This document shows, one piece after another, positions 6,040 to 24,837 of a DNA stretch of 42,023 nucleotides. Under the pieces are notes generated by a model, which worked only from the letters and a program-made list of their open reading frames with translations, had not been told where the DNA came from and did not search any database. Source of the stretch: Pseudomonadota bacterium (GTDB taxonomy: Bacteria; Pseudomonadota; Alphaproteobacteria; UBA828). Made by a program: the position numbers and the translations under genes. Within the stretch, counting starts at the first letter, position 1. Each line of letters opens with the position of its first letter. Location of the stretch: the NCBI GenBank assembly GCA_027624955.1, contig JAQBTG010000035.1:1-42023 (forward strand). Reading direction: 5' to 3'.

Positions 6040-6312
6040 CTATATATGTACGACGTCGTTGAGAAACGGATCTCCCGCCAGCGCCGTTTCGCTATCCAGG
6101 AGTGCCGCACAACCGGGGCAGTAGAATCGCCGCAGCAGCACGTTGGCGGCGTTCGAATAGGGCTCACCGCCAGCGCCTTTTAAGGTGGTTTCACTGAGGC
6201 GCGCCGCTTCTTTCCAGGGTTCGCCCGACGGCCCAAGCGCGTGTCCGCATGCCATGCAGGCGATTTCAGCCTTTTCGTTCACCACCAGGGAAGCCGAAAT
6301 GCGTGTGCTCAT
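6040..6312 (-). CDS. Small zinc-ribbon protein, acetone carboxylase gamma-like
   Basis: A 90-residue protein with two CxxC pairs (Cys19/Cys22 and Cys65/Cys68), the spacing of a zinc ribbon. Its length, cysteine pattern and place directly after hyuB match the gamma subunit of acetone carboxylase and related short homologues found beside hydantoinase-type genes. It overlaps the hyuB-2 stop by ATGA, so translation is probably coupled and it may form part of the complex. True acetone carboxylase gamma subunits are about twice as long, so this is a reduced version. It could support assembly or metal supply of the HyuAB complex. An independent role is possible. Confidence 0.75.
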   Translation of the reverse strand: MSTRISASLVVNEKAEIACMACGHALGPSGEPWKEAARLSETTLKGAGGEPYSNAANVLLRRFYCPGCAALLDSETALAGDPFLNDVVHI

Positions 6313-8138
6313 TCTGCTGCTTCCTGGCTCAGGCGGCCGACGCGAATGGCTTGACGTGCCGAAGCGCTCGCCGCTGCGTCCACGCCGCCTTCAGCGTTGA
6401 GCACGACCCCATATACATCGCGCCCCACGCCTTCGCTTACATTGCCTTCACGCACATCGCGGGCAATCTTTTCCGGCTCGCGCGCCAACGGATCACCGTA
6501 ACCGCCGCCACCGTCGGATCGGACATAGAGCACGTCCTGATCCATCAACGGAAACACACCCCACGAAATCGACTGTTGCTCGCCGGTCATTTGCTGCGGC
6601 GACATGGCGAATGGATTGACGTTCTTGCCCGCTTCGGCCGCCTCATTGTTGTGCACCCAGCGGAAGTTGCACGGCGCGCCAGGAAAACCGCCGCCCAACC
6701 CATCGCTCATGGAAAATTTGGTGCCTTTGCCGGAGACCACGTAATTGATGCCGCCATCGGGTGAATCATGCTGTTGGACGGCATATTCAAGCCCGGTGCC
6801 GCCGCGGTATTTTCCTGGGCCGCCGGAATCGATGGTGGCGCGGCGGAACAAGTAGCGCACAGGGAAATGGCTTTCGGTGGTTTCCACATTGGCCATGCGG
6901 CCAATGGGGTTGGGTATTTCCCCGCCAACATCGACGCCGTCGGCGAAGCTGCGCCCGCCACCGGCGCCGCCGAACGTCTCGGTCATGATGCCGATAGCTT
7001 CTTGGCCTTTTTGATTCTGCCCGAACATGAAAATCGCAAAATGGCTACCGTGCCAGACCGCGGTCGCTTCTTTGGCATATTTTTCGCTCGCGGAGAGCAT
7101 TTTAGAGATGCAAATGCAGGCGGCGTTATTGACCGATTGTATGGCGCCAACAGTGGCGAGCGAGATCGGCGCCGGGCGCGTGCAATTCACAATCGAGCCT
7201 TCCGGCGCGATCATCGAAATCGGGCGCAGCACTCCGTCATTCCAGGTAATGTCGTAACAAAGCAGCGGGAAGAGCGGCGCGAAGAACCCGCCCCAGGCGG
7301 CCCAGTAAGCGCAATTGATGCCGTATTTCGATTGCGCACTCGAGCCGGTGAAATCGAAATTGAGCGTATCGCCTTTTTTGGTCATGGCGAGAAGAACATG
7401 ATAGGTCTCTTCTTCGATATCGAAATATTGACGTGATTCCCAACGCCCATCGGGCAATTCGCGCAACCGCTCGCGGAAGCTTTGCTCCGATTGGTCGACC
7501 AGCATTTGGCACGCTTGATCGACCGGTTTGGCGCCGTATTTATCGACCAGCGCCACCATGCGTTCGCGCGCCACATTGTTGGCCGCGATCATCGAGGACA
7601 GATCGAGCGCCACCATCTCGGGCGCCCGCACCATGTTTAAAATGGTATCCATGATGTCGGTATTCATTTCGCCGCGGTCCACAAGTTTGAGTCCGGGCGA
7701 GGAGAAACCCTCGGTGAAGATATCGCGCGAATCTGGACTGAACCCGCCCGGCACCATAGCGCCGATATCATAGACATGGACGAAGCACGCGCTCCACGCT
7801 ACCAACTTGCCCTCATAGTGAATCGGCGATACGAGGTAAACATCGGAGGTATGCAGCGCTGCCGTATACGGGCAGTTGGTAAGGAACACATCACCTGGGT
7901 TGATGCGCCCGTCAAAGCGCCGGATGATCGTCTTACAGGCTTCCGCGGCGCTGGTCAGATGATGCAGGAAACCGACCCCGCCCATCAGCAGAGAACCATC
8001 CGCACGATAGAGCGACACCATGAGGTCGTGGCCCTCATTAGTGATGGCACTTCCTGAGACATGCTTGAGCGTTATTACCGCTTCGTCGATGACGCGGTAA
8101 AGCCGGTGGCGAATAATTGAAAATGTGATCGGGTCCAT
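6309..8138 (-). CDS. Hydantoinase B / oxoprolinase family subunit (HyuB-2)
   Basis: A 609-residue HyuB-family subunit, start ATG preceded by GAGG at a 7-base spacing. It begins 9 bases after the hyuA-1 stop and is surely its partner. The conserved HVYDIGAMVPGG (121-132) and the C-terminal GGGGYGDP are present. Unlike the other two HyuB proteins in the window, the motif usually written NDPxxGG is NCPYTAALHTSDV (88-100): the Asp is Cys and the Gly-Gly is Ala-Ala. This may mark a different substrate or metal site. Together with the downstream zinc-ribbon gene the layout recalls the alpha, beta and gamma subunits of acetone/acetophenone carboxylase, but the amidase gene next door favours a cyclic-amide route. 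Confidence 0.92.
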   Translation of the reverse strand: MDPITFSIIRHRLYRVIDEAVITLKHVSGSAITNEGHDLMVSLYRADGSLLMGGVGFLHHLTSAAEACKTIIRRFDGRINPGDVFLTNCPYTAALHTSDVYLVSPIHYEGKLVAWSACFVHVYDIGAMVPGGFSPDSRDIFTEGFSSPGLKLVDRGEMNTDIMDTILNMVRAPEMVALDLSSMIAANNVARERMVALVDKYGAKPVDQACQMLVDQSEQSFRERLRELPDGRWESRQYFDIEEETYHVLLAMTKKGDTLNFDFTGSSAQSKYGINCAYWAAWGGFFAPLFPLLCYDITWNDGVLRPISMIAPEGSIVNCTRPAPISLATVGAIQSVNNAACICISKMLSASEKYAKEATAVWHGSHFAIFMFGQNQKGQEAIGIMTETFGGAGGGRSFADGVDVGGEIPNPIGRMANVETTESHFPVRYLFRRATIDSGGPGKYRGGTGLEYAVQQHDSPDGGINYVVSGKGTKFSMSDGLGGGFPGAPCNFRWVHNNEAAEAGKNVNPFAMSPQQMTGEQQSISWGVFPLMDQDVLYVRSDGGGGYGDPLAREPEKIARDVREGNVSEGVGRDVYGVVLNAEGGVDAAASASARQAIRVGRLSQEAAE

Positions 8139-8147
8139 GGCGTTGCC

Positions 8148-10268
8148 TCAGATGAAATGAATGACCATGTTGCGGTATTCGTCAAGATAACCGGTCTGTT
8201 TGTCCTGCAGGACAATGGTGGTGATCGGCGTGTGAATGACCGCCGGGCCGGTAATTTCGTTGCCGGGCGTAAGGCGCTCAAAATCGTAAATATCGGATTC
8301 GACCAGAGCGCCCGCAGCATCAACGAAGATCGGTCGACGCCCGGTTATAGCAGCGCTAGCATCTTTGCCGCCGAGCGCCATTTTCTCGATTTCTGGGCGT
8401 TTCATCAGGCCACGCGCGGTGAGCCGGAACATGGTCATTTCCATGCCCGCCGCACGGTAGGCTGAGCCCTTGCCAAATTTGCGTTCGTACAGTGCCTCGA
8501 AATCATCGACCAGGGCGGCCAGAGCGTCTTCGTCCAGAGGCGTTTTGCCACGTACCGGAGTCGTCACCTCATGTACTTGGCGGCCATAGCGAAGATCGAT
8601 CGACCATTCGAAGGCGGTACCAGAATCGGCGAAACCTTCCTTGGCCAGCTGAGCTTTTGCGTCGCCGATCATGGATTCATAGATGGCGTTGATATCTTCG
8701 GCAGGACTTGGCACTGGCAGGGTCTTGGTGACACTGTACTCATGAACAATATCCGCTGAAACCAAGCCGAATGCGCAGTTCACCGACGCGGTGTACGGAA
8801 CGACAATTCGTTTAACATTCAATTCCGCGCCGAAGATGCCGCAGACGATCGGACAGCTTCCGCCAAAAGCATGAAGTACGAAATCGCGCGGATCGAGGCC
8901 GCGCTCGACCGTAATTTCATGAATAAGGTCGGAGATTTGCGCCGCTGCAATTCGGAATATCCCAATCGCCGCTTCTTCCACACCGAGGCCAAGCGGATCG
9001 GCGATCTTCTCCTTAAAAATAGTGCGCGTGCGCTCCAGGTCGAGGGTTATCGCGCCGCCGAGGAAATTTTCTGGATCCATGTAACCAACGAGGATCATGA
9101 CGTCGGTTAGTGTTGGCTCTTCACCACCCTGGCCGTAGCAGATCGGTCCCGGCCGGGCGCCAGCACTGCGCGGACCGACGCTCGGCACATTGGTGCGCGG
9201 GTCGAGCGACACGATACTGCCGCCACCAGCGCCGATAGACACCACTTCGATTTTCGGAGCGACATAGTGAAATCGGTCGACCATCGGCTCGCGCGCGTAA
9301 TCGAACTCGCCGCCCTGAATGACTCCGACCTTGAACGTGGTGCCGCCCATATCGGCGGCGATGACATCATCGTCGCCCATCAAATGGCCAAGATATCGGC
9401 TGCCGATAACACCCGCCGCCGGGCCACACTCAATCATTCCGACGGCTCGTCCTGCGGCCTCCTTGGCCGGCAATAGCCCGCCATAGCCCTGCATCACCAG
9501 CAGCGGCCCGTCATAGCCCTCGGCTGTGAGCAGGTCCTGTAGATTGTTGAGATACAGGGACGCGATGTTGCCGGCATAGGCGTTGATTACAGTGGTCGAA
9601 GTTCGCTCATATTCGCCTGGCACTGGCGCGATGTCGCTCGACAGCGACACATATATCGAAGGCGCCACGCGCTGAATCACCTCGCGCACGGCGTGCTCAT
9701 GTTCAGCGTTGTAAAACGACCAGAGAAAGCAGACGGCGAGCGCTTCGACGCCTTTCTCTTCAACTAGATGGCGCACCGCTTTTTCAGTGGCTTCCAGGTC
9801 GAGGGCGCGCAGCACCGCGCCTTTGTAATCGACCCGCTCGGGCAGGCCGCAAATACGATCACCCGGCACAAGCGGTTCGGCACGCTCGGTCGCCACCGGA
9901 TGCTTGATGCCGTCTTCGCTGAGCCCGCCCCAGCGGCCATAGGCGCCGCGCGTGATCAGGAGCGTATCCTCGAATCCCTCGGTGGTGAGCAAGCCGGTAA
10001 GCGCGCCATCGCGGGTGAGCAGCGTATTGTCGACAACAGTTGAGCCATGCACGAACAGCGACGTGGCGGCGAACAATTCGGCGAAAGAGAGGCCCATGGT
10101 ATCGGCGGCGGAGCGAATAGAATTCATCACGCCTTCAGCAAAATTGGGCGGCGTTGAGAGAGCTTTGCCGAGATAAAGCGGCTCTCCCGGCGCAAAGACG
10201 ATGGTATCGGTGCATGTGCCGCCGACGTCGGTGGCAACGACATAGCGTTTGCTTTTCGATTTTTCCAT
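8148..10268 (-). CDS. Hydantoinase A / oxoprolinase family ATPase subunit (HyuA-1)
   Basis: A 706-residue HyuA-family subunit, which binds ATP and activates the substrate carbonyl by phosphorylation. Two actin-like ATPase phosphate loops are visible: DVGGTCTD at 14-21 and DMGGTT at 306-311, followed by a GAGGGS loop. It is the first gene of a five-gene minus-strand operon (hyuA, hyuB, zinc ribbon, amidase, nitronate monooxygenase). The 220 bases upstream, shared with the divergent MOSC gene, must hold its promoter. The size fits the N-methylhydantoinase/acetone carboxylase beta type. The substrate remains open: hydantoin, lactam or ketone. Confidence 0.93.
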   Translation of the reverse strand: MEKSKSKRYVVATDVGGTCTDTIVFAPGEPLYLGKALSTPPNFAEGVMNSIRSAADTMGLSFAELFAATSLFVHGSTVVDNTLLTRDGALTGLLTTEGFEDTLLITRGAYGRWGGLSEDGIKHPVATERAEPLVPGDRICGLPERVDYKGAVLRALDLEATEKAVRHLVEEKGVEALAVCFLWSFYNAEHEHAVREVIQRVAPSIYVSLSSDIAPVPGEYERTSTTVINAYAGNIASLYLNNLQDLLTAEGYDGPLLVMQGYGGLLPAKEAAGRAVGMIECGPAAGVIGSRYLGHLMGDDDVIAADMGGTTFKVGVIQGGEFDYAREPMVDRFHYVAPKIEVVSIGAGGGSIVSLDPRTNVPSVGPRSAGARPGPICYGQGGEEPTLTDVMILVGYMDPENFLGGAITLDLERTRTIFKEKIADPLGLGVEEAAIGIFRIAAAQISDLIHEITVERGLDPRDFVLHAFGGSCPIVCGIFGAELNVKRIVVPYTASVNCAFGLVSADIVHEYSVTKTLPVPSPAEDINAIYESMIGDAKAQLAKEGFADSGTAFEWSIDLRYGRQVHEVTTPVRGKTPLDEDALAALVDDFEALYERKFGKGSAYRAAGMEMTMFRLTARGLMKRPEIEKMALGGKDASAAITGRRPIFVDAAGALVESDIYDFERLTPGNEITGPAVIHTPITTIVLQDKQTGYLDEYRNMVIHFI

Positions 10269-10488: not shown

Positions 10489-11343
10489 ATGACGAGCCAA
10501 TCGAACGCCGTCGGAACCATCCAGAACATCTGGCGCTATGCCGTGAAGTCGATGGGCGGCGAAGAATTGGGCGAGGCCCTCGTTACCGAAGGCGGGCTCT
10601 TAGGCGATCGCGGCTATGCCGTGATCGACCAGGCGAATGGCAAGGTCGGCAGCGCCAAAATGCCGAAAAAATGGGGCAGCCTGCTGACCCTCAGCTCCGC
10701 CTACAGCGCGCCGCCGAGCGCAGGCGCGCCGTTGCCACCGGTGCAGATTAACTGGCCGGGCGGGGAAAGCGTGATCAGCGGCGGGGGCGATATAGACGCC
10801 CGCCTGTCCGAGACCGTTGGGCGGCCGGTCGCGCTGACGACGGTGCGCCCCGAGACCGTCAGCCTCGAACGTATGGACCCCCTCGAAGCCGAGGAAACCA
10901 TTCTCGATATCGGCGAAATCATGATGGCGGGCCGCTTTTCCGACTATGCCGCAATCCACCTGCTGACCACCGCAACCCTCGCCCGCCTATCCGAGCTTAG
11001 CCCCGGCATCGCTTTCGATGCCAAGCGCTTCCGCCCCAACCTAATTATCGAGGCGGCGGAAGGCCGGCACGGCTTCGTTGAGAATGACTGGGTCGGGCGC
11101 ACCGTCGCCATCGGCAAAGACGTGCGTCTGCACATCACCGACCCCACACCCAGGTGTCTGATCCCGACCCAGGCACAGCATGGTGGCATCGAAAAGGACA
11201 TGAAAATCGTCTCCACCATCGTCGAACATAACAGCCTGCCGGTCCCCGTCCTCGACAACGAAGTGCTGCCTTGTGTTGGCGTCTACGGCTTTGTGTTGAA
11301 GGGCGGAGATATGCGCCAGGGAGATACGATCCGGGTCGAGTGA
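10489..11343 (+). CDS. MOSC domain-containing protein (mARC/YcbX-like)
   Basis: A 284-residue protein with an N-terminal MOSC_N beta-barrel region (about 8-100) and a C-terminal MOSC domain (about 130-282). The typical KRFRPN segment is at 179-184, and the conserved cysteine that ligates molybdenum in mARC proteins is Cys223 in TPRCLIPT. Homologues reduce N-hydroxylated compounds such as hydroxylamines and amidoximes, often with a separate ferredoxin-type partner; no such domain or gene is seen here. A GAGGAG site precedes the start. It is convergent with the tartrate-dehydratase-like gene, only 13 bases between stops. Its place between nitrogen-ring catabolic operons fits a role with N-oxygenated compounds, but that is inference. 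Confidence 0.88.
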   Translation: MTSQSNAVGTIQNIWRYAVKSMGGEELGEALVTEGGLLGDRGYAVIDQANGKVGSAKMPKKWGSLLTLSSAYSAPPSAGAPLPPVQINWPGGESVISGGGDIDARLSETVGRPVALTTVRPETVSLERMDPLEAEETILDIGEIMMAGRFSDYAAIHLLTTATLARLSELSPGIAFDAKRFRPNLIIEAAEGRHGFVENDWVGRTVAIGKDVRLHITDPTPRCLIPTQAQHGGIEKDMKIVSTIVEHNSLPVPVLDNEVLPCVGVYGFVLKGGDMRQGDTIRVE

Positions 11344-11356
11344 AACCGTCCGCCGC

Positions 11357-12514
11357 TTAATCCAACAACCGCTTGAGCACATCATAAAGCGCCGCCTTGC
11401 GTTCGAAGCCGATGCCTGGGGCATCGGGCAGCATGACGTAGCCGTCTTCTATTGGGGTGTCGTCGGCGAAGCCGCCGAAGGGTTGGAAGACGCCGGGGTA
11501 GGATTCGCAGCCGCCGAGATTGAGCGCGCCTGTCAAAGCTAAGGCGAGGAGGTTGCCGCCGTGTGGGATGAAGCGGCGAGGCGACCAGCCCAGCTCCTGC
11601 ATCATATCGACAATGGCGATGGTCTCTAAGACGCCGTAGGCCAGGGCAGGATCGAATTGCAGATAGTCGACGCTCCGGCGCAGGCCGCCATGGCGGATGA
11701 GGTTGGTGGCGTCTTGCAGGGAAAGTAGATTCTCCCCGGTGGCGACGGCATGTGGGTAGCACCGCACGATTTCGGCATTGAGAGCATAATCGAGGGGATC
11801 GCCAGGCTCTTCAAACCAGCGCAGACCATAGGGCGCCATGGCCGCGCCATATTTGAGCGCGGTCTCGATATCGAAGCGGCCGTTGGCGTCCACCGCCAAG
11901 CGCCCGCCATCGCCGCCCAATAGCTCCAGCACGGCCTCGATGCGCCTGATGTCGTCGTCGAGCGGCGCGCCACCGATCTTGATTTTCACCCAGCCATAGC
12001 CCGTGTCCAAGTACCCGCGGACCTCTGCCAGCAGGCCCGGGATGCCTTTTTCTTCATCGTAATAGCCGCCCGCCGCGTAGACGAAAACTCGGTTTTCCGC
12101 CGCTTCGCCGCCGAGCAAACGCCAAAGTGGCACACCGGCTACCTTGGCGGCGGCGTCCCACAGCGCGATCTCTATTGCAGCCACGGCAACGGCACGCTCG
12201 CCGTGGCCGCCGGGCTTTTCGTTTTGCATCATGGCGGCGCGGAGAGCTTTGGGGTCGAGATTATCGCCGGCTTGGTTTTGCTGCTGTTCCGGCGTCAGGT
12301 CGAGGATACGTGGTGCCAGGCGGGCGCGGATCACTTCTCCTTGCGCGTAGCGGCCATTCGAATTGAAGCCGAAACCGATGATCGGTTTGCCATCGCGAAT
12401 TACGTCGGTGACCACGGCCACCGCGCTCACCGTCATCTTGCTGAAATCGATAACGGCGTTGCGCATGGCAGCACCCATGGGAACGCTCTTCTCGCGTATT
12501 TCGACAATGCGCAT
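11357..12514 (-). CDS. Enolase-superfamily dehydratase, D-tartrate dehydratase (TarD)-like
   Basis: A 385-residue enolase-superfamily protein that strongly resembles Bradyrhizobium D-tartrate dehydratase (D-tartrate to oxaloacetate). Seen here: the NEKPGG loop with Lys100, the KIK motif (Lys177, Lys179), metal ligands Asp209, Glu235 and Glu261, and the general acid/base pair Asp288/His318 in QFDP and IPHGG. Segments such as FNSNGRY (50-56) and AGDNLDP (82-88) also match TarD as I recall it. It is the last gene of the pxpBC operon, 9 bases after pxpC-1. The product may be an oxaloacetate-type 2-oxoacid from a dihydroxy diacid. Substrate identity should be treated as probable, not certain, because loops near the active site differ between close relatives. 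Confidence 0.88.
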   Translation of the reverse strand: MRIVEIREKSVPMGAAMRNAVIDFSKMTVSAVAVVTDVIRDGKPIIGFGFNSNGRYAQGEVIRARLAPRILDLTPEQQQNQAGDNLDPKALRAAMMQNEKPGGHGERAVAVAAIEIALWDAAAKVAGVPLWRLLGGEAAENRVFVYAAGGYYDEEKGIPGLLAEVRGYLDTGYGWVKIKIGGAPLDDDIRRIEAVLELLGGDGGRLAVDANGRFDIETALKYGAAMAPYGLRWFEEPGDPLDYALNAEIVRCYPHAVATGENLLSLQDATNLIRHGGLRRSVDYLQFDPALAYGVLETIAIVDMMQELGWSPRRFIPHGGNLLALALTGALNLGGCESYPGVFQPFGGFADDTPIEDGYVMLPDAPGIGFERKAALYDVLKRLLD

Positions 12515-12523
12515 GGGAGCGAC

Positions 12524-13498
12524 TTATGCCTTTACGATGCTGTCTTCGCCACACAGCGCATTGATGGCGCGCTTGCGGGCCTGCGCTTCTTCCACCGAGA
12601 TGAGCTCGAACGCATAATGCTCGTTGGGGCGCGATTGGCCGAGCTTCCAGAACGCGGCGGAAGGCACGGTGAAGGGGTTGATAAAGCCGCCCAGCGTCAA
12701 GGTATCGTGCAGCAGAATGATCGGCGTCTGGCCGCAGAGATTAATCGCGCCGATGGGATAGCCGTGATCGATGGTGTTGGACGGGTCGGAACCGTTCTCG
12801 GGCGCCTTATTGGTCGCCTTGTCGGTGAACGTCCATTCCGGTCCTTCGAGGCGAAAGCCGACACGGTTGCTTTTTGGCGAGAGCTTCCAATCGCTTGTCA
12901 AAAAGCGCTTCTGCCCGGCGGCATCGATCCAATCATCATTGGGTCCGGCGCAAACTTCTATCTGCCAGCGCCCGTTCGCGGATATCGCCGGGCGGCTAGA
13001 ATTCTTGACCTTCCGGTCCGGTACGCCTTCCCCGGCTCCGATCGGAATCTCGCCGCCGACTTGCAGCGCCGCGCCATTCAGGCCGCCGCAATCGCCGAGC
13101 ACGAATGTCGCGCGTGAGCCAAGAAACGGCGGCGTATCGATCGCGCCGGCAATTGCGATATAGGCGCGTGCGCCGTTTATCGCTGAGCCCAATACAAGCA
13201 CCTGCCCAGCAGCAACGGCGATGCTTTGCCAAAGCGGCACGGGCGCGCCATCGAGCTTAGCCACCATGTCGGCGCCGCAAATGGCGATTACGGTGGCAGC
13301 CCCGAATCTCAGCGATGGGCCGATGAACTGGCATTCGAGCGCCGCCGCGCCCGGTGCATTGCCAACCAGGATATTGGCGAGGCGGAAAGACCAATGATCG
13401 ATCGGCCCGGACGGCGGGAAACCCATGCCGAACGCGCCCTTGCGGCCGGGAAAATCCTGCACGCAGGTTTCGAGTCCAGCTTTCAATACTTCGATCAT
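12524..13498 (-). CDS. PxpC/KipA-type biotin-dependent carboxyltransferase-like subunit, copy 1
   Basis: A 324-residue protein of the AHS2 family, the PxpC (KipA) subunit of prokaryotic 5-oxoprolinase, also homologous to part of urea carboxylase. Typical motifs are LETCVQDFPGRKG near the N-terminus, FPPSGPIDHWSFRLAN, and GPNDDW in the middle. The ATG at 13498 is chosen because it overlaps the upstream stop as ATGA and fits the family N-terminus; an earlier in-frame start adds 12 unrelated residues. It is closely similar to the second copy at 15275-16252 (for example LECQFMGP against LECQFIGP). Here it is separated from its PxpB partner by a dehydrogenase gene. PxpA is not present. Confidence 0.92.
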   Translation of the reverse strand: MIEVLKAGLETCVQDFPGRKGAFGMGFPPSGPIDHWSFRLANILVGNAPGAAALECQFIGPSLRFGAATVIAICGADMVAKLDGAPVPLWQSIAVAAGQVLVLGSAINGARAYIAIAGAIDTPPFLGSRATFVLGDCGGLNGAALQVGGEIPIGAGEGVPDRKVKNSSRPAISANGRWQIEVCAGPNDDWIDAAGQKRFLTSDWKLSPKSNRVGFRLEGPEWTFTDKATNKAPENGSDPSNTIDHGYPIGAINLCGQTPIILLHDTLTLGGFINPFTVPSAAFWKLGQSRPNEHYAFELISVEEAQARKRAINALCGEDSIVKA

Positions 13499-14391
13499 AA
13501 GCGCGGCGCCTTCACACCGGCGCGCTCGCACCAATGATCCAAGAGGGCGGAGAAATCCTTGTCATGAAACTTCGTGCTGCGCGCCAGGCTGACGCTTTCG
13601 CGCGCCGCCGCGGCGATCGGCAACGGCACCTTGACTTGATTGGCGGCATTTAAGATCAGAGATAAATCTTTATGCGCAAGATCGATCGCGAAGCCGGGCT
13701 CGATATCGCCAGTCAGTACCTTCGTGGCGTAGTTGATTTTGAGCTGGCCGTTGGTCGCCGTCGTACCATGAATGACATCGAGCGTGGTTTGCAAATCTAG
13801 GCCGAAGCGGGCGGAAAGCGTCAGCACTTCAGCATTCATCTGGCACGAGACGATGGCGAGATAATTGTTCACCAGCTTCGTGCGCATGCCGCTGCCGACC
13901 GCGCCGCAATGGTGGATGGTGGTGCCCATGGCTTCGAGAAGTGGACGCACGCGGACTAAATCTGCGTCCGACGCGCCGACCATAAAGAGGCTTTCTCCAG
14001 CATTGGCGTGTTGGGCGAGGCGGCCAACCGGCGCATCCACCATCGCCATACCGGACTTGTCGAGTTTCGCCGCAAGGGCGTCGGTCGTTAGCGGATCGAC
14101 AGTGCTCATGTCGAGAAGAAGCATGCCTTCCCGGCCATGGGCGAGCACCCCGCCCTCGCCGAGCACAACGGCTTCTACTTCCGGCGAGCCTGGCAGCATG
14201 GTGACGACGATATCGCTGGCCGCGGTCAACTCGGCGATCGAGGCGGTTTCGGTCGCGCCCAATTGGACGAGCACGCTGACCGGCGTCGGCGAGACATCGA
14301 ACACGCTTAGTTGGAAGCCCTTGTTTTGAAGGTTGCTCGCCATGCCTTTACCCATGGCGCCGAGGCCGATAAACCCAATGCGTTCGGTCAT
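13495..14391 (-). CDS. NAD(P)-dependent 3-hydroxyacid dehydrogenase, YihU-like
   Basis: A 298-residue beta-hydroxyacid dehydrogenase (HIBADH family). The dinucleotide loop is GLGAMG at 9-14, the substrate loop DMST at 94-97, and the catalytic lysine Lys172 in TKLVNN. The signature DAPVGR (119-124) differs from the usual DAPVSGG and matches the sulfolactaldehyde reductase YihU group, as does the FAIDLAHKDL stretch in the C-terminal half. The ATG at 14391 is preceded by AAGGAC at a suitable distance; an upstream in-frame start would overlap pxpB-1. It lies inside the second pxpBC pair and its stop overlaps pxpC-1. It likely reduces or oxidises a short aldehyde acid such as a semialdehyde. Confidence 0.9.
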   Translation of the reverse strand: MTERIGFIGLGAMGKGMASNLQNKGFQLSVFDVSPTPVSVLVQLGATETASIAELTAASDIVVTMLPGSPEVEAVVLGEGGVLAHGREGMLLLDMSTVDPLTTDALAAKLDKSGMAMVDAPVGRLAQHANAGESLFMVGASDADLVRVRPLLEAMGTTIHHCGAVGSGMRTKLVNNYLAIVSCQMNAEVLTLSARFGLDLQTTLDVIHGTTATNGQLKINYATKVLTGDIEPGFAIDLAHKDLSLILNAANQVKVPLPIAAAARESVSLARSTKFHDKDFSALLDHWCERAGVKAPRL

Positions 14392-14408
14392 GATTGTTGC
14401 GTCCTTGT

Positions 14409-15278
14409 CTAAAATTTTCCGTCTGGGTTGAGCGACGCCACCCACTTCTTGTAGGCACCGACCGAGAAGCGCTGATAGGCGGTGATGTTGAACTCATAAC
14501 TGCCATCCGCCACCCGGGCCTCGATATATTCGAACTCTTCTGCGCCGATGGGCATGAATTTCACCCGGTCGGCGGCGTCGAGCAGCACGACGCGGTCCTT
14601 GAAAATCGGGTGACGTTGGCGCGGGTCCCATAGCGGTACCGGCACGCGGCCGATCAAATTGTAACCACCCGGCCCGGGCGTGGTGTAGACTGAGGTCGAG
14701 AGCCCGCCGACGCCGATCGCGCCAAGCGTCGTCCAGGTGCGCGGCGGATTATATTTGGGCGAGGTGATAGCGCATCTCGGATCGAGCGCGCGCAACAACG
14801 GCAGGCCCGGCGTCGAACACACCGCGACCACCCAATGCTCGGTGCCGGAATGGACACGCGCCAACTGCTTGGCGTCATCAAGGCCGTTGATACGGGCGAC
14901 GTAATCGGGATCATATTCGCGCGGGGATATCTTCTCGCTGTAATCCTCAACGCATTGCCGGCTCCAAGGGTCGAGATACATCGCCGGCAGATAGGCGAGA
15001 CGGCTCTCAAGCTCAAGCTCCTCGACCGAGCCCAAGCCACCAATCAGACGTTCCAGTTCCGTTTGCAAATCCGCGTAAGAGATTTCGTCCGAATCATATT
15101 CAACAACGAGAGAATTATAGGACGGGTTGGTATCAATCACCCCCCGCGTTTGATCCTGCTTGAGCGCCGCCGTCAGGCCGAGCGCGAGAAAATTGAGATC
15201 GATGCTGCCATCGTCGCCGAACTGTACCAAGATGAATTGATCGCCGCCTGGCAGAAATTTAGCCTCGTCAAACTTCAT
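14409..15278 (-). CDS. PxpB/KipI-type (AHS1) subunit, copy 1
   Basis: A 289-residue protein of the AHS1 family, homologous to PxpB (KipI) of 5-oxoprolinase. Its C-terminal half carries the family core: the HSGTEHW motif, PKYNPPRTW and a glycine-rich TTPGPGGYNLIGRVPVPLW-like stretch. Its ATG overlaps the stop of pxpC-2 (ATGA), so the two pairs are translationally linked. PxpB and PxpC together form the ATP-using part that phosphorylates or opens a cyclic amide; PxpA, the LamB/YcsF part, would normally be required and is missing nearby. About 290 residues is slightly longer than E. coli PxpB, as is usual for this acid-catabolism subgroup. Confidence 0.9.
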   Translation of the reverse strand: MKFDEAKFLPGGDQFILVQFGDDGSIDLNFLALGLTAALKQDQTRGVIDTNPSYNSLVVEYDSDEISYADLQTELERLIGGLGSVEELELESRLAYLPAMYLDPWSRQCVEDYSEKISPREYDPDYVARINGLDDAKQLARVHSGTEHWVVAVCSTPGLPLLRALDPRCAITSPKYNPPRTWTTLGAIGVGGLSTSVYTTPGPGGYNLIGRVPVPLWDPRQRHPIFKDRVVLLDAADRVKFMPIGAEEFEYIEARVADGSYEFNITAYQRFSVGAYKKWVASLNPDGKF

Positions 15279-16252
15279 GCGATGCTCTCCTCGGTACAGA
15301 GTTTATCGATGGCGCGGCGCGCATCTTGCGCCTCTTCCACCGAGATCCGGTGGAACCGGTAGATATCGTTGGGCTTGGACTGGGCCAGCTTCCAGAACGC
15401 CGCCGAAGGGACGGTGAACGGATTAATAAAGCCCCCAGCGCTCGGCGCGTCATTGACCAGGATAATCGGCGTCTGGCCGCAAAGATTGACCGAGCCCACC
15501 GGATAACCGTGATCGAGAATGTTCGATGGGTGCTCGCCATGTTCCGGCCCCTTGGTGCTAGCCTTTTCGGCGAACAGCCAATCCGGCCCCTCCAAGCGGT
15601 AGCCGGTGCGGTTGCTGCGCGCCTGAAGCTTCCATTCGCTAGTGAGGAACCGGTCGATCCCCTCCGCTGTGATCCAATCGTCATTCGGCCCCTGCACCAC
15701 TTCGATTTGCCACTCTTTGCCGTTGGCAATAGCTGGGCGGCACGCCTCTTTCACGCGCCTTCCTGGAACGCCCTCCCCGCCATTCGCGTGCAAGATTTGA
15801 CCGACCTTCAGGGCGTGGCCGTCGACGCCACCGACACCAGCCATGTGGAACGTTGCGCGCGCACCAAGCACCGATGGAACCTCTATGCCGCCCGAAATCG
15901 CGAGATAGGCGCGCGCGCCTTTGCTGGCAAAACCGCAAGCCAATTTCTGACCGGCCGTCACAGTCAGGCTTTCCCACATGGGAATGGCGGTGCCGTCGAT
16001 CGTGGCGTTCATTTGAGCACCGCATAGAGCAATCACACAAGTGCCGCTAAAAACCAATGTCGGACCCATAAATTGACACTCCAATCCGGCGGCGGCGGGT
16101 TCATTGCCGACCAATATATTGGCGAGGCGAAAGGACCACATATCGAACGGGCCAGAAGGCGGAAACCCTTGCTCCCAAAAGCCGCGGCGGCCGGGGAAAT
16201 CCTGCACGGATGTTTCCAGACCAGCTTTCTCCACTGCGATCACAACCGCCAT
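15275..16252 (-). CDS. PxpC/KipA-type biotin-dependent carboxyltransferase-like subunit, copy 2
   Basis: A 325-residue AHS2-family protein, paralogue of the copy at 12524-13498. The same landmarks occur in order: LETSVQDFPGRRG, FPPSGPFDMWSFRLAN, LECQFMGP, GPNDDW and the C-terminal GGFINPFTVPSAAFWKLAQS. It follows pxpB-2 by 2 bases and overlaps pxpB-1 by 4, so it lies in the most compact part of the operon. The two copies share most motif sequence but differ enough to exclude a very recent duplication. Different substrates, or hetero-oligomers mixing both pairs, are possible. Confidence 0.92.
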   Translation of the reverse strand: MAVVIAVEKAGLETSVQDFPGRRGFWEQGFPPSGPFDMWSFRLANILVGNEPAAAGLECQFMGPTLVFSGTCVIALCGAQMNATIDGTAIPMWESLTVTAGQKLACGFASKGARAYLAISGGIEVPSVLGARATFHMAGVGGVDGHALKVGQILHANGGEGVPGRRVKEACRPAIANGKEWQIEVVQGPNDDWITAEGIDRFLTSEWKLQARSNRTGYRLEGPDWLFAEKASTKGPEHGEHPSNILDHGYPVGSVNLCGQTPIILVNDAPSAGGFINPFTVPSAAFWKLAQSKPNDIYRFHRISVEEAQDARRAIDKLCTEESIA

Positions 16253-16254
16253 GA

Positions 16255-17124
16255 TTAAAACCGTTCCGTCATATCGAGCGTTTCAAGCCAGTGATGATAT
16301 TCACGGATGGAGAACTTGGCGTAGCCCGCGACATTGTGGACATAGGTGCCCTCTTCGACCCGGCTCTCGACGTAATCATATTCGGCGCGTTCGATGGGCA
16401 AGAAGCGCACCCGGTCACCTGGGCGCAGGAGAGCCAGATCGTCCTTGAACGCGGGCAGGCGCTGGGCGATATCGCAAACCGGAACCGGTGTGTGGCCAAT
16501 AATTTGATATCCCCCCGGCGTATTGGCGGGATAAACGCATGTCACCGAGCCGCCATACCCGATTGTGCCCTTCGGCGTCCAGGTGCGCGGCGGATTGTAC
16601 TTTGGCGCGGTCATCCGGCAGCGCGGATCGAGCGCAATCAACGACGCCAAGCCAGGATAGAAACCGAGCGCCGACACCCAATATTCGGTGCCGGAATGGA
16701 TGCGGGCAAGCTGGGCATAACCGTCGAGATCATTGAGCCGTACCATGAGGTCGGGATCATATTCCTTGTCGCCGATCTTGGCGCAGTAATCCTCCCAACA
16801 GGCGCGCGTAACATGGTCGCAATAAAGCACGGGAATGTAGTAGATCGGGCTCAACAGCTCGATATTTTCAAGCGACTCCATGGCATAATAATGCGAGAGA
16901 ATTTCGCGTTTCAAATCGCCGAAGGAGATCCCATCCGGGTCGTAGCTGAGAACGATGGATGCCATGTTCGGAAGTAGCTCTATCAGCCCGGGTATCTCCG
17001 CTTCGCGCACTTTCGCCGAGAGCGAGTGAACGAGAAAGTTAAGGTCGAAATTCAGCTCGTCTCCAAGCTCCATTTCGATATATCGGTCGCCGCCGGGCAG
17101 AAATTTGGGCTCGTCGTAGATCAC
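16255..17124 (-). CDS. PxpB/KipI-type (AHS1) subunit, copy 2
   Basis: A 289-residue AHS1-family protein, first gene of the six-gene operon pxpB-pxpC-pxpB-dehydrogenase-pxpC-tarD-like. It has the same landmarks as the copy at 14409-15278: HSGTEYW, PKYNPPRTW and the NTPGGYQIIGHTPVPV-like stretch. Both copies have exactly 289 residues and share an N-terminal pattern (FLPGGD), which shows they arose by duplication. The upstream 164 bases are shared with the divergent E1 gene and contain a TGTGATCACA palindrome. No LamB/YcsF (PxpA) or biotin-carrier gene is close. Confidence 0.9.
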   Translation of the reverse strand: MIYDEPKFLPGGDRYIEMELGDELNFDLNFLVHSLSAKVREAEIPGLIELLPNMASIVLSYDPDGISFGDLKREILSHYYAMESLENIELLSPIYYIPVLYCDHVTRACWEDYCAKIGDKEYDPDLMVRLNDLDGYAQLARIHSGTEYWVSALGFYPGLASLIALDPRCRMTAPKYNPPRTWTPKGTIGYGGSVTCVYPANTPGGYQIIGHTPVPVCDIAQRLPAFKDDLALLRPGDRVRFLPIERAEYDYVESRVEEGTYVHNVAGYAKFSIREYHHWLETLDMTERF

Positions 17125-17209
17125 GCGCTATTCTCTCCCCACCAGCGATGCGGCGGTTGCTTCCGCCTACAGACACGCCGGACGATCTGCTATAACTTGT
17201 AGCCCGTGA

Positions 17210-17219
17210 TGTGATCACA
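17210..17219. promoter_or_regulatory. TGTGATCACA palindrome, possible GntR operator
   Basis: A perfect 10-bp palindrome lies between the divergent pxpB-2 and E1 genes, 70 bases before the E1 start. A GntR/FCD regulator is encoded in the E1 operon, and such regulators bind short palindromes in divergent promoter regions. The link is inferred from position only. Confidence 0.35.
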
Positions 17220-17288
17220 CGCCAGACGGCAATAATAGTTTCGTGCGCGGATACGCGCCGATAATGAAAGTTCAGTGGAGACAAAAAC

Positions 17289-19484
17289 GTGCCAAAGCTT
17301 GTGCCGCTCAAGACAAACACCCCCTGGTTTCGCGTTGAGGCCACCGATGCCGACTGGAAAAAAGAAGATCCGGTGGTTTTAGCGCAAATTCTCGAGCAGC
17401 TCATTGTGGTGCGAAAATTTGAGGAACGCATACTGGAATTGTGGCAGGCCGGCTGCGTGCATGGCCCGGCCCATGCCAGCATCGGTCAGGAAGGCGGCGC
17501 GATCGCCGCCATTTCCACGCTCGGAGCCGGTGACAAGATCAACGGCACCCACCGCGCCCACCACCAATTTCTTTCGCGCTTTCTCTATCATGAAATGCCG
17601 GCTGGCTATGATCCGCGCAGCACCGAATTTCCAGCCGCCATGCAGGATACGGTGTATCGCTCAATGGCGGAGATTATGGGTCTCACGCCCGGTTACTGCG
17701 GCGGGCGCGGCGGCTCGATGCATATGCGCCGCGACGAGGCTGGCGTACTTGGCACCAACGCCATTGTCGGCGGCAATCCGCCCCAGGCGACAGGCTACGC
17801 GCTGGCCGACAAAATACTCGCCACCGGCAACATCACGGTGACCTTCTTCGGCGACGGCGCGATGCAGAATGGCGCCGCCTATGAGTCCATGAATTTGGCC
17901 GCGATCTATGATCTGCCAATGGTCTTTATCGTCGAGAACAATCTTTATGGCGTCTCCACACATGTTAGCGAGGCGACGCGAGAGGCCCGCCTCTCGGCGC
18001 GCGGTCAGGGACTTGCCGTACCGTCTTTGGAAGTGGACGGCATGGACGTTATGGCCATGCGCAAGGCGATGGAATGGGCGCTCAAGCAAATCCGCGAAAA
18101 GAAGGGTCCAGTGCTGATCGAATGTCAGACCTATCGCTACTTCCACCAAAATGGCCCGATACCTGGCAGCGCATTCGGCTACCGCGAGAAATCAGAAGAG
18201 GCAGCCTGGCGCAAGCGCGATCCCTACATCACCCTACCGAAAAAACTGTTGAAGCTCGGCGTGGTAACGCAGAAGTCGCTTGCGGAAATTGACCGCAAAG
18301 CGGGAGAAAGCGTCGCGTCTGCGTCAGCGGCACTAACGGAAACCGAGCCCAAATCCAACCAGCTACGCATCATTCCGGCACTTTGGCCGGACCCGGGCAC
18401 GGTGGATAACGGCATCCGCGGCGACCTCAGCGAACTTGCCGGCCAGCGCATGATAGAAATCGAAGATATCGACCCGGCAAAAACCAAGACGATGAAATAT
18501 GTCGAGGCCATGGCCGCGGTCCAGATGCGGGCCATGGAGCGCGACGAACGCGTAATTGTTCTCGGCGAAGATGTGCATCGTCTCGGCGGCGGCACCGTCG
18601 GCGCGACCAAAGGCATCTCCGAGAAATTCCCCGACCGCCTGATCGGCACGCCAATCGCCGAAAACGGCTTCACCGGCATGGGTCTCGGCGCCGCCATCAA
18701 TGGTCTGCGCCCGATCATCGAAATAATGTATGCCGATTTCTGTCTGGTTGCGGCGGATCAATTGTTCAACCAGATCGCCAAAGTGCGGCATATGTTCGGC
18801 GGAACGTCGACAGTGCCCCTGATCGTGCGCATCCGCGCCGCCGGTGGGCATGGCTACGGCTCGCAGCATTCCATGGACCCAAGCGGGTTGTTCGCTTTGT
18901 GGCCGGGTTGGCGGGTGATCGTGCCAACAACGCCGTTCGACTATATCGGCCTATTTAATTCCGCAGTGCTGTGCGACGACCCGGTGGTGGTGGTCGAAAC
19001 CCAGACCCTGTTTCAGAGCGAAGGACCGGTGCCCGCAGACGATCTCGACTTCTGCATTCCCTTCGGTAGCGCGCGGATCGTCCGCCCCGGCACGGCCTGC
19101 ACCATTGTTGCCTGCGGCAACATGGTGCCGATTTGCATTGAGGCGGTGGAGAAAAGCGGCATCGACGCCGAGGTAATCGATCCACGCACGTTGGATGCAG
19201 TGAGCTTGGACTGGCAAACCATCGGCGCCAGCGTGCAGCGCACCAACCGCCTGCTGGTGGCGGAACAAACGTCGCGCGGCCCATCACTCGGTGCGGGCAT
19301 CGTGCAGGAGGGCCAGGAGCGCCTGTTTGATTGGCTCGACCACCAGATACTTCGCGTCAGCGGCACTCAGTCCGCGCCGGTGGTTTCCAAGGTTTTGGAG
19401 CAAGCAGCACTAGCCGGCGTCGATGAAGTGGTGGCCGGCATTCATGCTCTAATGGGTGGTGGCGCCCGCGAAGCGGCGGAGTAG
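17289..19484 (+). CDS. Fused E1 alpha-beta thiamine-diphosphate 2-oxoacid dehydrogenase
   Basis: A 731-residue fusion of the two E1 subunits of a pyruvate/branched-chain/acetoin-type dehydrogenase. The alpha part (about 1-370) has HASIGQEG, HRAHHQF and the thiamine-diphosphate motif GDGAMQNG, ending in ENN. The beta part (about 395-731) has LGEDV, the PIAENGFTGMG loop, the catalytic-type SQHS and the C-terminal transketolase domain. It starts at GTG with GGAG 9 bases upstream; no better start is seen. The next genes, 6 and 16 bases apart, encode a GntR regulator and an SDR, so they form an operon. No E2 or E3 gene follows. It may use an E2/E3 elsewhere, or decarboxylate a 2-oxoacid or diketone in another way. 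Confidence 0.93.
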   Translation: MPKLVPLKTNTPWFRVEATDADWKKEDPVVLAQILEQLIVVRKFEERILELWQAGCVHGPAHASIGQEGGAIAAISTLGAGDKINGTHRAHHQFLSRFLYHEMPAGYDPRSTEFPAAMQDTVYRSMAEIMGLTPGYCGGRGGSMHMRRDEAGVLGTNAIVGGNPPQATGYALADKILATGNITVTFFGDGAMQNGAAYESMNLAAIYDLPMVFIVENNLYGVSTHVSEATREARLSARGQGLAVPSLEVDGMDVMAMRKAMEWALKQIREKKGPVLIECQTYRYFHQNGPIPGSAFGYREKSEEAAWRKRDPYITLPKKLLKLGVVTQKSLAEIDRKAGESVASASAALTETEPKSNQLRIIPALWPDPGTVDNGIRGDLSELAGQRMIEIEDIDPAKTKTMKYVEAMAAVQMRAMERDERVIVLGEDVHRLGGGTVGATKGISEKFPDRLIGTPIAENGFTGMGLGAAINGLRPIIEIMYADFCLVAADQLFNQIAKVRHMFGGTSTVPLIVRIRAAGGHGYGSQHSMDPSGLFALWPGWRVIVPTTPFDYIGLFNSAVLCDDPVVVVETQTLFQSEGPVPADDLDFCIPFGSARIVRPGTACTIVACGNMVPICIEAVEKSGIDAEVIDPRTLDAVSLDWQTIGASVQRTNRLLVAEQTSRGPSLGAGIVQEGQERLFDWLDHQILRVSGTQSAPVVSKVLEQAALAGVDEVVAGIHALMGGGAREAAE

Positions 19485-19490
19485 AACGGA

Positions 19491-20222
19491 ATGGCGGTTG
19501 CTCCCTCGGCGCTTCGACTGTCGGACGCAAATCTCAACGGCACAGATGACGTGCCCCTGCATGAACATGTTTATCGGGAAATTCGCCGCAACCTGATCGC
19601 CGGCCAATATCAGCCGGGCGAGGCGGTGACGCTGCGCGGGGTCGCCGGAAAATTGGGCACCAGCGCCATGCCGGTGCGCGAAGCACTCGGACGCCTCGTC
19701 GCCGAACGCGCGCTCGATCTCGGACCGAACCGCACGGCCCGCGTGCCGTTCGTTACCAGCGCAAAATATGCCGAGATTTGCGAAGTTCGGATTGCCCTGG
19801 AGGGACTGGCGGCAGAGAAAGCGGCGCACCTAATTGTAGACAGCGAACTCGACCGCATAGACGGCCTTTTCGCCGAAGTATCCGCCGCCGCCGAGCGCCA
19901 CGATGCGCCAACCTATTTCGCGAAGAATCAGGAAATGCATTTTTCCGTCTATCGCGCCGCACGTTCACCGCTCCTGCTAGATATGATCGAAGGTATTTGG
20001 CTGCGTGTCGGACCGACGCTCAATTATTTGTTTCACGATATCCGCTTCGCCGGGCGCGCCGCCGCCACCAACATGCCGATCGTCGATGCGCTGCGCTCGC
20101 GCAAAGGCAGCGCCGCGCGCGAAGCCGTGGCGCATGATATTTCCCACGCGATGATGTGGTTGGTGCAGCATCTGCCGCAAGGCGAGCAACAAGCGAACAT
20201 GGGCCGCGTGGCTCATAAATGA
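19491..20222 (+). CDS. GntR-family transcriptional regulator (FCD type)
   Basis: A 243-residue regulator. An N-terminal winged helix-turn-helix spans about residues 22-92, with TLRGVAGKLGTSAMPVREAL as the recognition part, followed by an FCD helical domain (about 100-225) that usually binds a carboxylate ligand through metal-coordinating His/Asp residues; HFSVYRAA is visible. It lies 6 bases after the E1 gene and 16 bases before an SDR gene, so it is co-transcribed with the enzymes it probably controls. A palindrome ahead of the E1 gene is a candidate binding site. It differs from the first GntR in the window by being of the VanR/FCD rather than NanR flavour. Confidence 0.92.
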   Translation: MAVAPSALRLSDANLNGTDDVPLHEHVYREIRRNLIAGQYQPGEAVTLRGVAGKLGTSAMPVREALGRLVAERALDLGPNRTARVPFVTSAKYAEICEVRIALEGLAAEKAAHLIVDSELDRIDGLFAEVSAAAERHDAPTYFAKNQEMHFSVYRAARSPLLLDMIEGIWLRVGPTLNYLFHDIRFAGRAAATNMPIVDALRSRKGSAAREAVAHDISHAMMWLVQHLPQGEQQANMGRVAHK

Positions 20223-20238: not shown

Positions 20239-21042
20239 ATGGCGAATTCAGCACGGCGCGCCCCTTCGCTAGTCGGCAAACGCGCTCTGGTCACTGGCGC
20301 AGCACGCGGCATGGGCGCCCGCACCGCGGAAGCGTTGGTGCGCGAGGGCGCCAGCGTCGCCCTCCATGCCCGGCGGCGAGGGCAACTTGATGCGATTTCG
20401 GAAAGTGTGCGGCAGCTCGGCGGCAAAGCCGTTTGCGTGACCGGCGAGCTTACCGACGCAGCTTCCATCGCAGACTTTTGCGCTGAGGCGATCAATAGAT
20501 TGGGCGGTATCGACATCGTCATCAACAATGCCGGCGTCGCGGCCCATGGTCCGGTTGTCGACCTAGAAGAAGAAGAGTGGGACCAAGTGATGGACGTCAA
20601 TTTGAAAGCGCCCTTCCTGGTCACCCAGCACACATTGCCCGCTATGATCGCGCAAGGCACTGGCGGAGCGTATGTGTTCAACGCTTCGAGCGCGGCGCGC
20701 ATGGCGCAGGCGGAGCGCTCAATCTACAACGCGACCAAGGCCGGATTGGTCGGCTTCACCCGCTGTCTGGCCGAGGAAGTCGGCCCGCACGGCATTACCG
20801 CGAATGCGGTTTGCGCCGGCTGGATCGCCACCGAGATGGCGGTGGAATTGCACGAACAGATGGCGGAAGAAAGCGGTGTGCCGTTCGAGCAGCTCTATGA
20901 CCAAGGCATGCGCGTCAACGCGATGCGTGCCATCATTCCGCCCGAGGATGTCGCTGATATGATGGTCTTCCTCGCCGGCCCCGGCGCGCGCCACGTCACT
21001 GCGCAATCCATTTACGTCTGCGCCGGGCGCAGTATCGTCTAG
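20239..21042 (+). CDS. SDR-family NAD(P)-dependent oxidoreductase
   Basis: A 267-residue classical SDR counted from ATG 20239; an in-frame GTG at 20230 is an alternative that adds three residues. The cofactor motif TGAARGMG, the NNAG motif and the catalytic YNATK (Tyr/Lys four apart) are all present. It is the last gene of the operon with the E1 fusion and the GntR regulator. The stop codon overlaps the stop of the convergent hyuA-2: a CTAG serves both strands. It is similar in layout to the SDR at 29973-30758 (both have a long helix before the C-terminal cofactor strand and a VCAG/VCGG tail), so the two may act on related hydroxy compounds. Confidence 0.92.
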   Translation: MANSARRAPSLVGKRALVTGAARGMGARTAEALVREGASVALHARRRGQLDAISESVRQLGGKAVCVTGELTDAASIADFCAEAINRLGGIDIVINNAGVAAHGPVVDLEEEEWDQVMDVNLKAPFLVTQHTLPAMIAQGTGGAYVFNASSAARMAQAERSIYNATKAGLVGFTRCLAEEVGPHGITANAVCAGWIATEMAVELHEQMAEESGVPFEQLYDQGMRVNAMRAIIPPEDVADMMVFLAGPGARHVTAQSIYVCAGRSIV

Positions 21043-23078: not shown

Positions 23079-23082
23079 CGCC

Positions 23083-24837
23083 CTAACCCCTTGCCGCGCG
23101 CAGAGTTTGAGTTGCCGTATCGTCGATACTGCCGTCCGGCGTCAGCGCCACGCCATATTGATCACGCGCAATTGCCGGCGTGATGTAGTCGTTCAGAACG
23201 TCATCAAGAACTTCTTGTGGCGGGCGGGTGAAAGCATCGCCGTAGCCGCCGCCGCCGCCGGTGACCACTCGCACACGATCGCCCGGCTGCAAGGCATGAT
23301 AAGGAACGCGGGCGACGCGCATTGTCTCCTTGCCGCTTTCAATTTCCATGAAATTACAGCTACCTTTGGCGCCGCCTTTGAGGCCCCACGGCGGCTCAAT
23401 GGAACGACCGAAACTGGCATAGGTAAAGGCATCATCCGCGAGGATATCAAATTCTCGCACCGCGCCGAAACCACCACGGTAGCGCCCCTCGCCCGCGCCT
23501 TCGTCGGTGTTGAGCGCGTACTGACGGACAAGAAGCGGGAACTTGGCTTCGAACAGTTCGACCGAATAATTATAGGTGTCGCCGTCGGTCGTCGCGATCA
23601 GGGCGGCGGTGCCGTCGCGTGTGGAGGTTGCCCCCCAACCGCCCACTGCCGGCTCGATATGGACGAATATTTCGCCGCTTTCGGGATCCTTGCCACAAAT
23701 ATAGGCGCCGCAGAGGGACATATAGCTGCCAGCACTGAAGCGGTCGGGCGCGATTTCAGCCAGCGCCTTCCACACCAGTTCCGAGGCATGGGCGGAACCT
23801 TCGTAATACCAGCCCGTCGGGGCCGGCTTCTTCGCGGTGAAGACGGTGCCATCAGGGCAGATGATTTCCACCGGACGGAACCAGCCTTCATTGGACGCCC
23901 CTTGCGGGTCGACGAGCGATTTGAAGACGGTCTTCACCGCCGAATGCAAGGCACCATAGGCGCAATTGATGGGACCGGGACGCTGCGCGCTGGTGCCGGT
24001 AAAATCGAACGTCATGCGCTCGCCATCGATCCGCACTTCGACGCAGACGGGGATTTGTTCATCGCTGATGCCATCACCGTCAATAATATCCACGGCGCGG
24101 TAACTGCCGTCCGGCAGGGCGGCCACGGCCTCTCGGCTGAGCTGTTCGCTGGTTTCCAAAATGTATTCAAACGTGGCATCCATGACCCCGGAGCCGTATT
24201 TTTTTTCAATCTCACGGAGCCGCACTTCGGCAATGCGCACTGCCGCAAGCTCGGCATTGAGATCGCCGAGACACATCGTTGGAAGGCGCACATTTTCGCG
24301 AATCAGGTCGACCACATCGGGCAGCAACTTGTCATCTCGGCAGACGCGGATACCAGGGAAGCGGATGCCTTCCTGATAGATCTCGGTGGCATTCGGCGCG
24401 ATGCTGCCGGCAACCGAGCCGCCGACCTCACTCCAATGCGCCACGGCAATTGCAAAGGCGCGCAATTTGTCGCCATCGAACAGCGGACGAATGAGCGCCA
24501 CGTCGCAGGTATGGGTGCCGCCCCCGAATGGGTCGTTCGTCATATAGACGTCACCCGGGCAGATATCGCCGCCGAATTTATTCTGAATGGCTTGAAGCTG
24601 AAACGAAAACGTGCCGGTAAAAAGCGTGACGCCGTTGGTCTGGACGATTAACTGGGCCTTGGTGTCAAGGATACCGCAGGCAAAATCAAGCACCTCGTAA
24701 ATCACCGGACTCATCGAAGTGCGGGCGATGACGATGCCCATCTCATCGACCGCCGCCAGCAGTTTGCCGCGCACGATTTCAAGCGTTACCGGATCGATAT
24801 CTGTCGCCGCCACTGGGTCCGTTACTGGGTCTGCCAT
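23083..24837 (-). CDS. Hydantoinase B / oxoprolinase family subunit (HyuB-3)
   Basis: A 584-residue HyuB-family protein from ATG 24837. The start is chosen because AAGGTGG lies 8 bases upstream and conservation (DPVTLEIVRGKL at 15-26) begins directly after; the ATG at 24855 has no good ribosome-binding site, and more upstream starts run into the divergent gene region. The canonical motif NDPFGGGTHTCD is at 101-112, AHWSEVGG at 133-140, and GGGGGYGD near the C-terminus. It begins an operon with hyuA-2 four bases downstream. The 136 bases upstream are shared with the divergent enolase-superfamily gene. Confidence 0.92.
   Translation of the reverse strand: MADPVTDPVAATDIDPVTLEIVRGKLLAAVDEMGIVIARTSMSPVIYEVLDFACGILDTKAQLIVQTNGVTLFTGTFSFQLQAIQNKFGGDICPGDVYMTNDPFGGGTHTCDVALIRPLFDGDKLRAFAIAVAHWSEVGGSVAGSIAPNATEIYQEGIRFPGIRVCRDDKLLPDVVDLIRENVRLPTMCLGDLNAELAAVRIAEVRLREIEKKYGSGVMDATFEYILETSEQLSREAVAALPDGSYRAVDIIDGDGISDEQIPVCVEVRIDGERMTFDFTGTSAQRPGPINCAYGALHSAVKTVFKSLVDPQGASNEGWFRPVEIICPDGTVFTAKKPAPTGWYYEGSAHASELVWKALAEIAPDRFSAGSYMSLCGAYICGKDPESGEIFVHIEPAVGGWGATSTRDGTAALIATTDGDTYNYSVELFEAKFPLLVRQYALNTDEGAGEGRYRGGFGAVREFDILADDAFTYASFGRSIEPPWGLKGGAKGSCNFMEIESGKETMRVARVPYHALQPGDRVRVVTGGGGGYGDAFTRPPQEVLDDVLNDYITPAIARDQYGVALTPDGSIDDTATQTLRAARG

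Follow-up and report, generated by a model that had tools for sequence, protein, structure and literature searches.

The locus and its boundaries

The stretch of DNA analysed here, referred to as the window, comes from a marine alphaproteobacterium, is 42,023 nucleotides long and makes up the entire contig C35. It contains an intact six-gene operon, all on the minus strand and reading from position 17124 down to 11357, in the order B1, C1, B2, DH, C2 and ENO. B1 (16255..17124; 289 aa, GTG start, PF02682) and B2 (14409..15278; 289 aa) encode carboxyltransferase (CT) subunits of the urea carboxylase (UC) type with a CT C/D domain, while C1 (15275..16252; 325 aa, PF02626), the presumed partner of B1, and C2 (12524..13498; 324 aa from an ATG, in an open reading frame that begins at TTG 13534) carry the CT A/B domain. 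DH (13495..14391 from an internal ATG, in a frame that begins at GTG 14445) encodes a beta-hydroxyacid dehydrogenase resembling YihU and tartronate-semialdehyde reductase, and ENO (11357..12514) a TarD-like sugar-acid dehydratase of the enolase superfamily, matching 2DW7 with 478 bits. With the starts of DH and C2 placed at the internal ATGs, the junctions in operon order are a 2-nt gap, a 4-nt ATGA overlap, a 17-nt gap, a second 4-nt ATGA overlap and a 9-nt gap. A sequence-only reading of this DNA had described these six tightly packed genes at the same coordinates and in the same order, with two paralogous B/C pairs of nearly equal length, and had noted that pxpA is missing from the operon; all of this is borne out by the sequence, and both pairs are intact.

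On one flank the operon meets a convergent MOSC gene (10489-11343, plus strand) and on the other the divergent E1fus, a fused E1 alpha-beta 2-oxoacid dehydrogenase gene (17289..19484, plus strand), so that no pxpA gene, not even one just beyond the window, can belong to the same transcript; in this genome, PxpA is encoded only on contigs C18, C19 and C37. E1fus is the most persistent neighbour of B1C1, and the divergent arrangement of the two genes around the intergenic region 17125..17288 is kept across the family. Next to it lies a GntR/FCD-family regulator gene (19491..20222, plus strand), a neighbour conserved in part of the family. A GntR operator conserved between B1 and E1fus was considered and rejected, no palindrome being common to the six aligned loci; one TGTGATCACATCACA repeat occurs in this intergenic region of L013 and is partly kept in the window. 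On the other side of the operon, a HyuB2/HyuA2 pair of the caprolactamase/hydantoinase/acetophenone-carboxylase type (6309..10268, minus strand) is a neighbour that is also conserved in the loci of genus g3. In the window as a whole, the caprolactamase/acetophenone-carboxylase family is represented by three HyuB and two HyuA genes (37-1764, 6309-10268 and 21039-25104). Farther away, two open reading frames overlap on opposite strands, one with a DksA-like zinc-finger end (29492-30322, minus) and one for an SDR-type dehydrogenase (29805-30758, plus), and their start sites probably need trimming.

Family identity of the B and C proteins

The sequence-only reading had named the four B and C genes pxpB and pxpC, after subunits of 5-oxoprolinase. 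In Pfam the B proteins are CT_C_D and the C proteins CT_A_B, and the finer NCBIfam models favour UC throughout: B1 and B2 each score 157 bits against the UC model TIGR02712, versus 90 and 73 bits against PxpB (TIGR00370), while C1 and C2 score 325 and 297 bits for UC versus 168 and 161 bits for PxpC. The equivalog cut-offs for PxpB (145.55) and PxpC (500) are thus missed by a wide margin by all B and C proteins of the operon, and both C proteins (251 and 237 bits) exceed the cut-off of 230 of TIGR00724, a broad domain model for the 5-oxoprolinase/urea amidolyase family. The best PDB match of both B1 and C1 is the Kluyveromyces lactis UC (KlUC, 3VA7), which C1 matches at 2e-65 as against 5e-36 for Escherichia coli YbgK/PxpC. 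Both CT halves are therefore closer to UC than to other families.

The catalytic residues agree with this assignment. Lys1605 is the probable general base of UC (PMC5770610). Counting along the printed alignments of the PDB hits, this residue, in the motif KYNPSRT, aligns with Lys175 of B1 (codon 16602-16600; KYNPPRT in B1) and of B2 (codon 14756-14754), so that the lysine of the KYNPxRT motif is present in both. The equivalent position holds Arg in all 30 short PxpB-type sequences sampled and Lys in all long B sequences linked to a biotin carboxylase (BC); the exceptions within the long class are G399C183 and G400C59, with Arg, and the C9 type, with Leu. This last type represents a third kind of B/C pair, found at L038 (contig C9), L140 and L141, the last with pxpA beside the pair. 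In a B tree of 78 sequences, including KlUC and the CT domains of eight bacterial UCs, B1 and B2 of the window, UC and the BC-linked pairs form one clade with an SH-aLRT of 100, and PxpB lies outside it; the inner order of PxpB is unsure, since many of its short sequences cover less than half of the alignment columns.

Judged by sequence, the label pxpB/pxpC is wrong at the family level, and the four genes are UC-type CT subunits rather than orthologues of PxpB and PxpC. B1 presumably works with C1 and B2 with C2, with the active site assumed to sit at the B/C interface. The operon nevertheless differs in its layout from UC, a single BC-CT-BCCP polypeptide, whereas here the CT halves are separate and doubled and BC and the carrier protein BCCP are encoded elsewhere. 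Of the window genes that were read or scanned, none encodes allophanate hydrolase, which would mark UC proper. The likeness to 5-oxoprolinase is one of superfamily level: the B and C subunits are homologous to those of PxpABC, but PxpB is short, carries Arg at the lysine position, belongs to a separate clade and has pxpA nearby in most of the loci sampled.

Divergence and selection of the two pairs

B1 and B2 are 44-50% identical across loci, and trees strongly support their separation; C1 and C2 likewise form distinct groups, although the join of the G393 C2 is weak. All six operon genes have dN/dS values of 0.08-0.13 relative to G196 (0.09-0.12 for the two pairs), a comparison limited to that genome as dS nears saturation against more distant ones. 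B1, C1, B2 and C2 are kept across genera at 63-86% identity. All six genes, those of both B/C pairs included, are under purifying selection, and neither pair is the decayed copy that the sequence-only reading had named as a possible outcome.

In B2, 11 positions are fixed in nine or more of the ten operon copies and differ from at least 30 of 32 other sequences. Six of the changes (Y148H, L153V, G154C, F155S, P199T and Q207N) distinguish all ten copies from all 32 others and map to the pair of conserved motifs in the C-terminal half. C2 has one fixed site, a change from Pro to Leu (9/9 versus 31/31) at position 279 of the TTG-started frame, turning DxPSxGG into DTLTLGG. Since these changes lie in motifs common to UC, they may bear on the acceptor.

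The dehydrogenase and the dehydratase

Both remaining enzymes resemble, without matching fully, a characterized protein. YihU, a 3-sulfolactaldehyde reductase, is the best match of DH in both PDB and NCBIfam, yet DH stays below the equivalog cut-off (NF012005, 282 bits versus 348). DH lies between B2 and C2 in only three loci, namely the window, G196/L013 and G391/L033, and is absent from the operon of G389, which belongs to the same genus as the window. By its distribution, DH is a recent lineage-specific insertion outside the conserved machine, contrary to the earlier reading, which counted its position between the second B and C among the signs of a modified machine. Homologues of DH on plasmids neighbour aldehyde dehydrogenase genes and, in two records, genes for split TPP-binding proteins; these neighbours fix no substrate.

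ENO retains the catalytic Lys/KxK, the metal ligands and the catalytic His of D-tartrate dehydratase (TarD, 2DW7), and shares 57-60% identity with TarD-type proteins encoded on named plasmids, but the residues around the catalytic His are not as in TarD. It departs from four TarD-type sequences by 14 fixed differences, two of which adjoin the catalytic His (GGHQ to GGNL) and another of which is H270L; GGNL is found in 11 of 11 operon copies of ENO and GGHQ in all four TarD-type sequences. Together with the fixed motif changes in B2 and C2, these changes suggest that the substrates of the operon probably differ from known ones, and the earlier proposal of a substrate other than 5-oxoproline is supported as probable.

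Distribution in the bacterial family

Relatives of B2 at an E-value of 1e-50 or better are confined to six of the 385 genomes of the class, five of them in the family of the window, and all 21 family genomes contain at least one B2 relative (one to seven matches each). The order B1-C1-B2-C2 on one contig, for which a survey of genomes had been proposed, recurs beyond the window in six family genomes (G196, G389, G289, G394, G396 and G393), and partial loci, ended by contig ends, occur in several more. Such recurrence shows that the arrangement is not due to chance. No example was found outside this one GTDB family, and within it the operon is seen only in metagenome-assembled genomes (MAGs); as most of these are split into numerous contigs, little weight attaches to absences.

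Variants of the arrangement also occur. G081 has a B1C1-type pair alone, beside E1fus; the C68-type pair is the sister of B1C1; and G393 (L109) carries both pairs without ENO, so that feeding a dehydratase, as proposed earlier, is possible for the window and not general for the arrangement. In the sequence set at large, two MAG records titled Klebsiella pneumoniae (L024 and L027; CAMAXW010000002.1 and CAMCQE010000064.1) match other gammaproteobacterial MAG loci, and their titles look mislabelled.

Biotin parts and pxpA outside the operon

Neither the operon nor the rest of the window encodes BC or BCCP. Elsewhere the genome supplies both, with matches to PxpA (three), CT_C_D (five, all in open frames of 290-370 aa), BC (four) and biotinyl/lipoyl domains (nine). 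The search for PxpA and biotin carboxylase that had been suggested thus yields three pxpA genes, one of which belongs to a biotin-linked operon on contig C18, and four BC genes, none of them in the operon. Contig C18 carries the only complete set of its kind in the genome, pxpA-BC-B-C-BCCP, with BC at 14340-15698 and BCCP, a free 71-aa protein, near 17684-17866 of that contig. A BC of the C18 type (at least 61% identity) is present as one copy in most family genomes and as two in G397, and it occurs in all eight operon-bearing genomes that are at least 93% complete (G000, G196, G289, G367, G394, G395, G396 and G399), where usually one BC copy faces several CT pairs. No match was found in G391 and G393, which hold parts of the operon, or in G398, which holds ENO; these genomes are 87, 67 and 92% complete, and assembly gaps are a possible cause.

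Outside the family, UC-type pairs are almost always fused to or near BC and/or BCCP. By annotation or open reading frame search, one or both lie near all 13 Lys-type loci examined (L042, L120 and the plasmid records L046 and L172-L181), eight gammaproteobacterial loci have the order accC-B-C-BCCP, and the genome loci L204-L206 have UC-type pairs with BC and/or BCCP, to which eight fused UCs can be added. Only L172, on a Thermomicrobium roseum plasmid, lacks a nearby BC among the 13; its CT pair is accompanied by BCCP and pxpA and adjoins the biotin transporter gene bioY. Pairs without a local BC are hence the exception, and the family of the window has many of them. BC also lies near seven of the 30 short Arg-type PxpB loci (L144, L151, L155, L165, L166, L169 and L170, some with PxpB fused to PxpC), so that its adjacency alone does not cleanly mark the Lys class.

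Like the pairs of the window, the five-gene pxpA-BCCP-BC-B-C operons, found in Ruegeria TM1040 (L046), in Agrobacterium T29 (L181) and, in this genome, on contig C18, have a separate long B (about 290 aa), a separate C and the catalytic Lys, and biotin parts encoded by separate genes are a further likeness. They differ in that the operon of the window has two pairs and neither pxpA, BC nor BCCP. At L046 and L181 these genes adjoin those for GABA transaminase and succinate-semialdehyde dehydrogenase, a gene context that suggests 2-pyrrolidone (GABA lactam) as the substrate of the five-gene system; the hint comes from distant relatives of the window pairs. Open reading frames of about 467 aa beside C18-type operons were considered as amidases and rejected, the three tested being GlcD-type oxidases. 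In the open-access literature, to which our search extended, no paper on five-gene pxpA/BC/CT operons was found.

Proposed mechanism and alternative explanations

The operon probably serves to add CO2 to a compound rather than to open 5-oxoproline. We consider it somewhat probable that it encodes two biotin-dependent UC-type CT heads, both supplied in trans by the shared BC and BCCP of C18. B1C1 and B2C2 would each receive CO2 from carboxybiotin borne by a free carrier protein and transfer it to an acceptor of the amide/ureide or ketone type, with BC and BCCP most likely provided by the complete C18 set. In actinobacterial acyl-CoA carboxylases, several CT subunits are served by one BC subunit. 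B2C2, having diverged from B1C1, would use a different acceptor or carry out a second step, and ENO may then have as its substrate a hydroxy-acid from this pathway. The earlier idea of a modified ring-opening or carboxylation machine is accordingly upheld in its carboxylation option, and not in its PxpB/PxpC identity.

An amide/ureide route in two steps, akin to UC with allophanate hydrolase, with N-carboxylation of an amide by a CT pair and subsequent cleavage by an amidase or a HyuAB-type hydrolase, would be a special case of this explanation and not exclusive of it. An amidase-signature gene does precede the C68-type pair in G196 (L117:7512-8969), and HyuAB and an isochorismatase-family hydrolase are encoded in the same neighbourhood, but the window operon has no detectable amidase-signature gene, the HyuAB family also includes ketone carboxylases, and in L106 (genus g3) the gene after ENO encodes a beta-keto-acid cleavage enzyme (NF053538, 550 bits), a context that favours keto acids over amides; we regard this route as rather unlikely. 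Less probable still, though the chief competitor of the biotin-dependent reading, is an ATP-dependent, biotin-free lactamase like PxpABC, with B1C1 and/or B2C2 activating a lactam or ureide and PxpA from C37 or C19 opening the ring. The genome does have its three pxpA genes, B2-clade pairs of G385, G386 and G387 directly adjoin a C37-type pxpA that is 67-69% identical to that of the window genome, and such pairs stand beside pxpA without BC at L110, L111 and L113. Against this, B1 and B2 have the lysine and the clade of UC, not of PxpB, and two operon genomes, G394 (95% complete) and G367 (98%), lack a C37-type pxpA, which G081 and G392 possess although a search of them gave no operon-type B2. 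C37-type pxpA thus does not follow the operon in its distribution and was rejected as an obligate partner of B2C2. That one pair is regulatory, like KipI/KipA, or a decayed duplicate, leaving the other alone catalytic, seems very improbable: B2 has lost the otherwise invariant G154, F155 and Q207, but it keeps Lys175 and the other common invariant residues, and the conservation of both pairs across genera and their dN/dS of about 0.1 speak against decay.

Significance

Proteins annotated as PxpB/PxpC or as 'allophanate hydrolase subunits' fall, in this sample, into two classes, split by the tree and nearly always by Lys or Arg at the catalytic position. 5-Oxoprolinase fits only the Arg class, and the Lys class probably represents a large group of biotin-dependent carboxylases still to be characterised. 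More tentatively, the supply in trans that we favour may extend to a general scheme in which one BC/BCCP motor drives several exchangeable UC-type CT heads, the two heads of the operon acting on different acceptors, other than urea, in consecutive reactions of a new carboxylation pathway. Having expanded its CT pairs around a single BC, the family of the window offers a natural testing ground for modular biotin enzymes.
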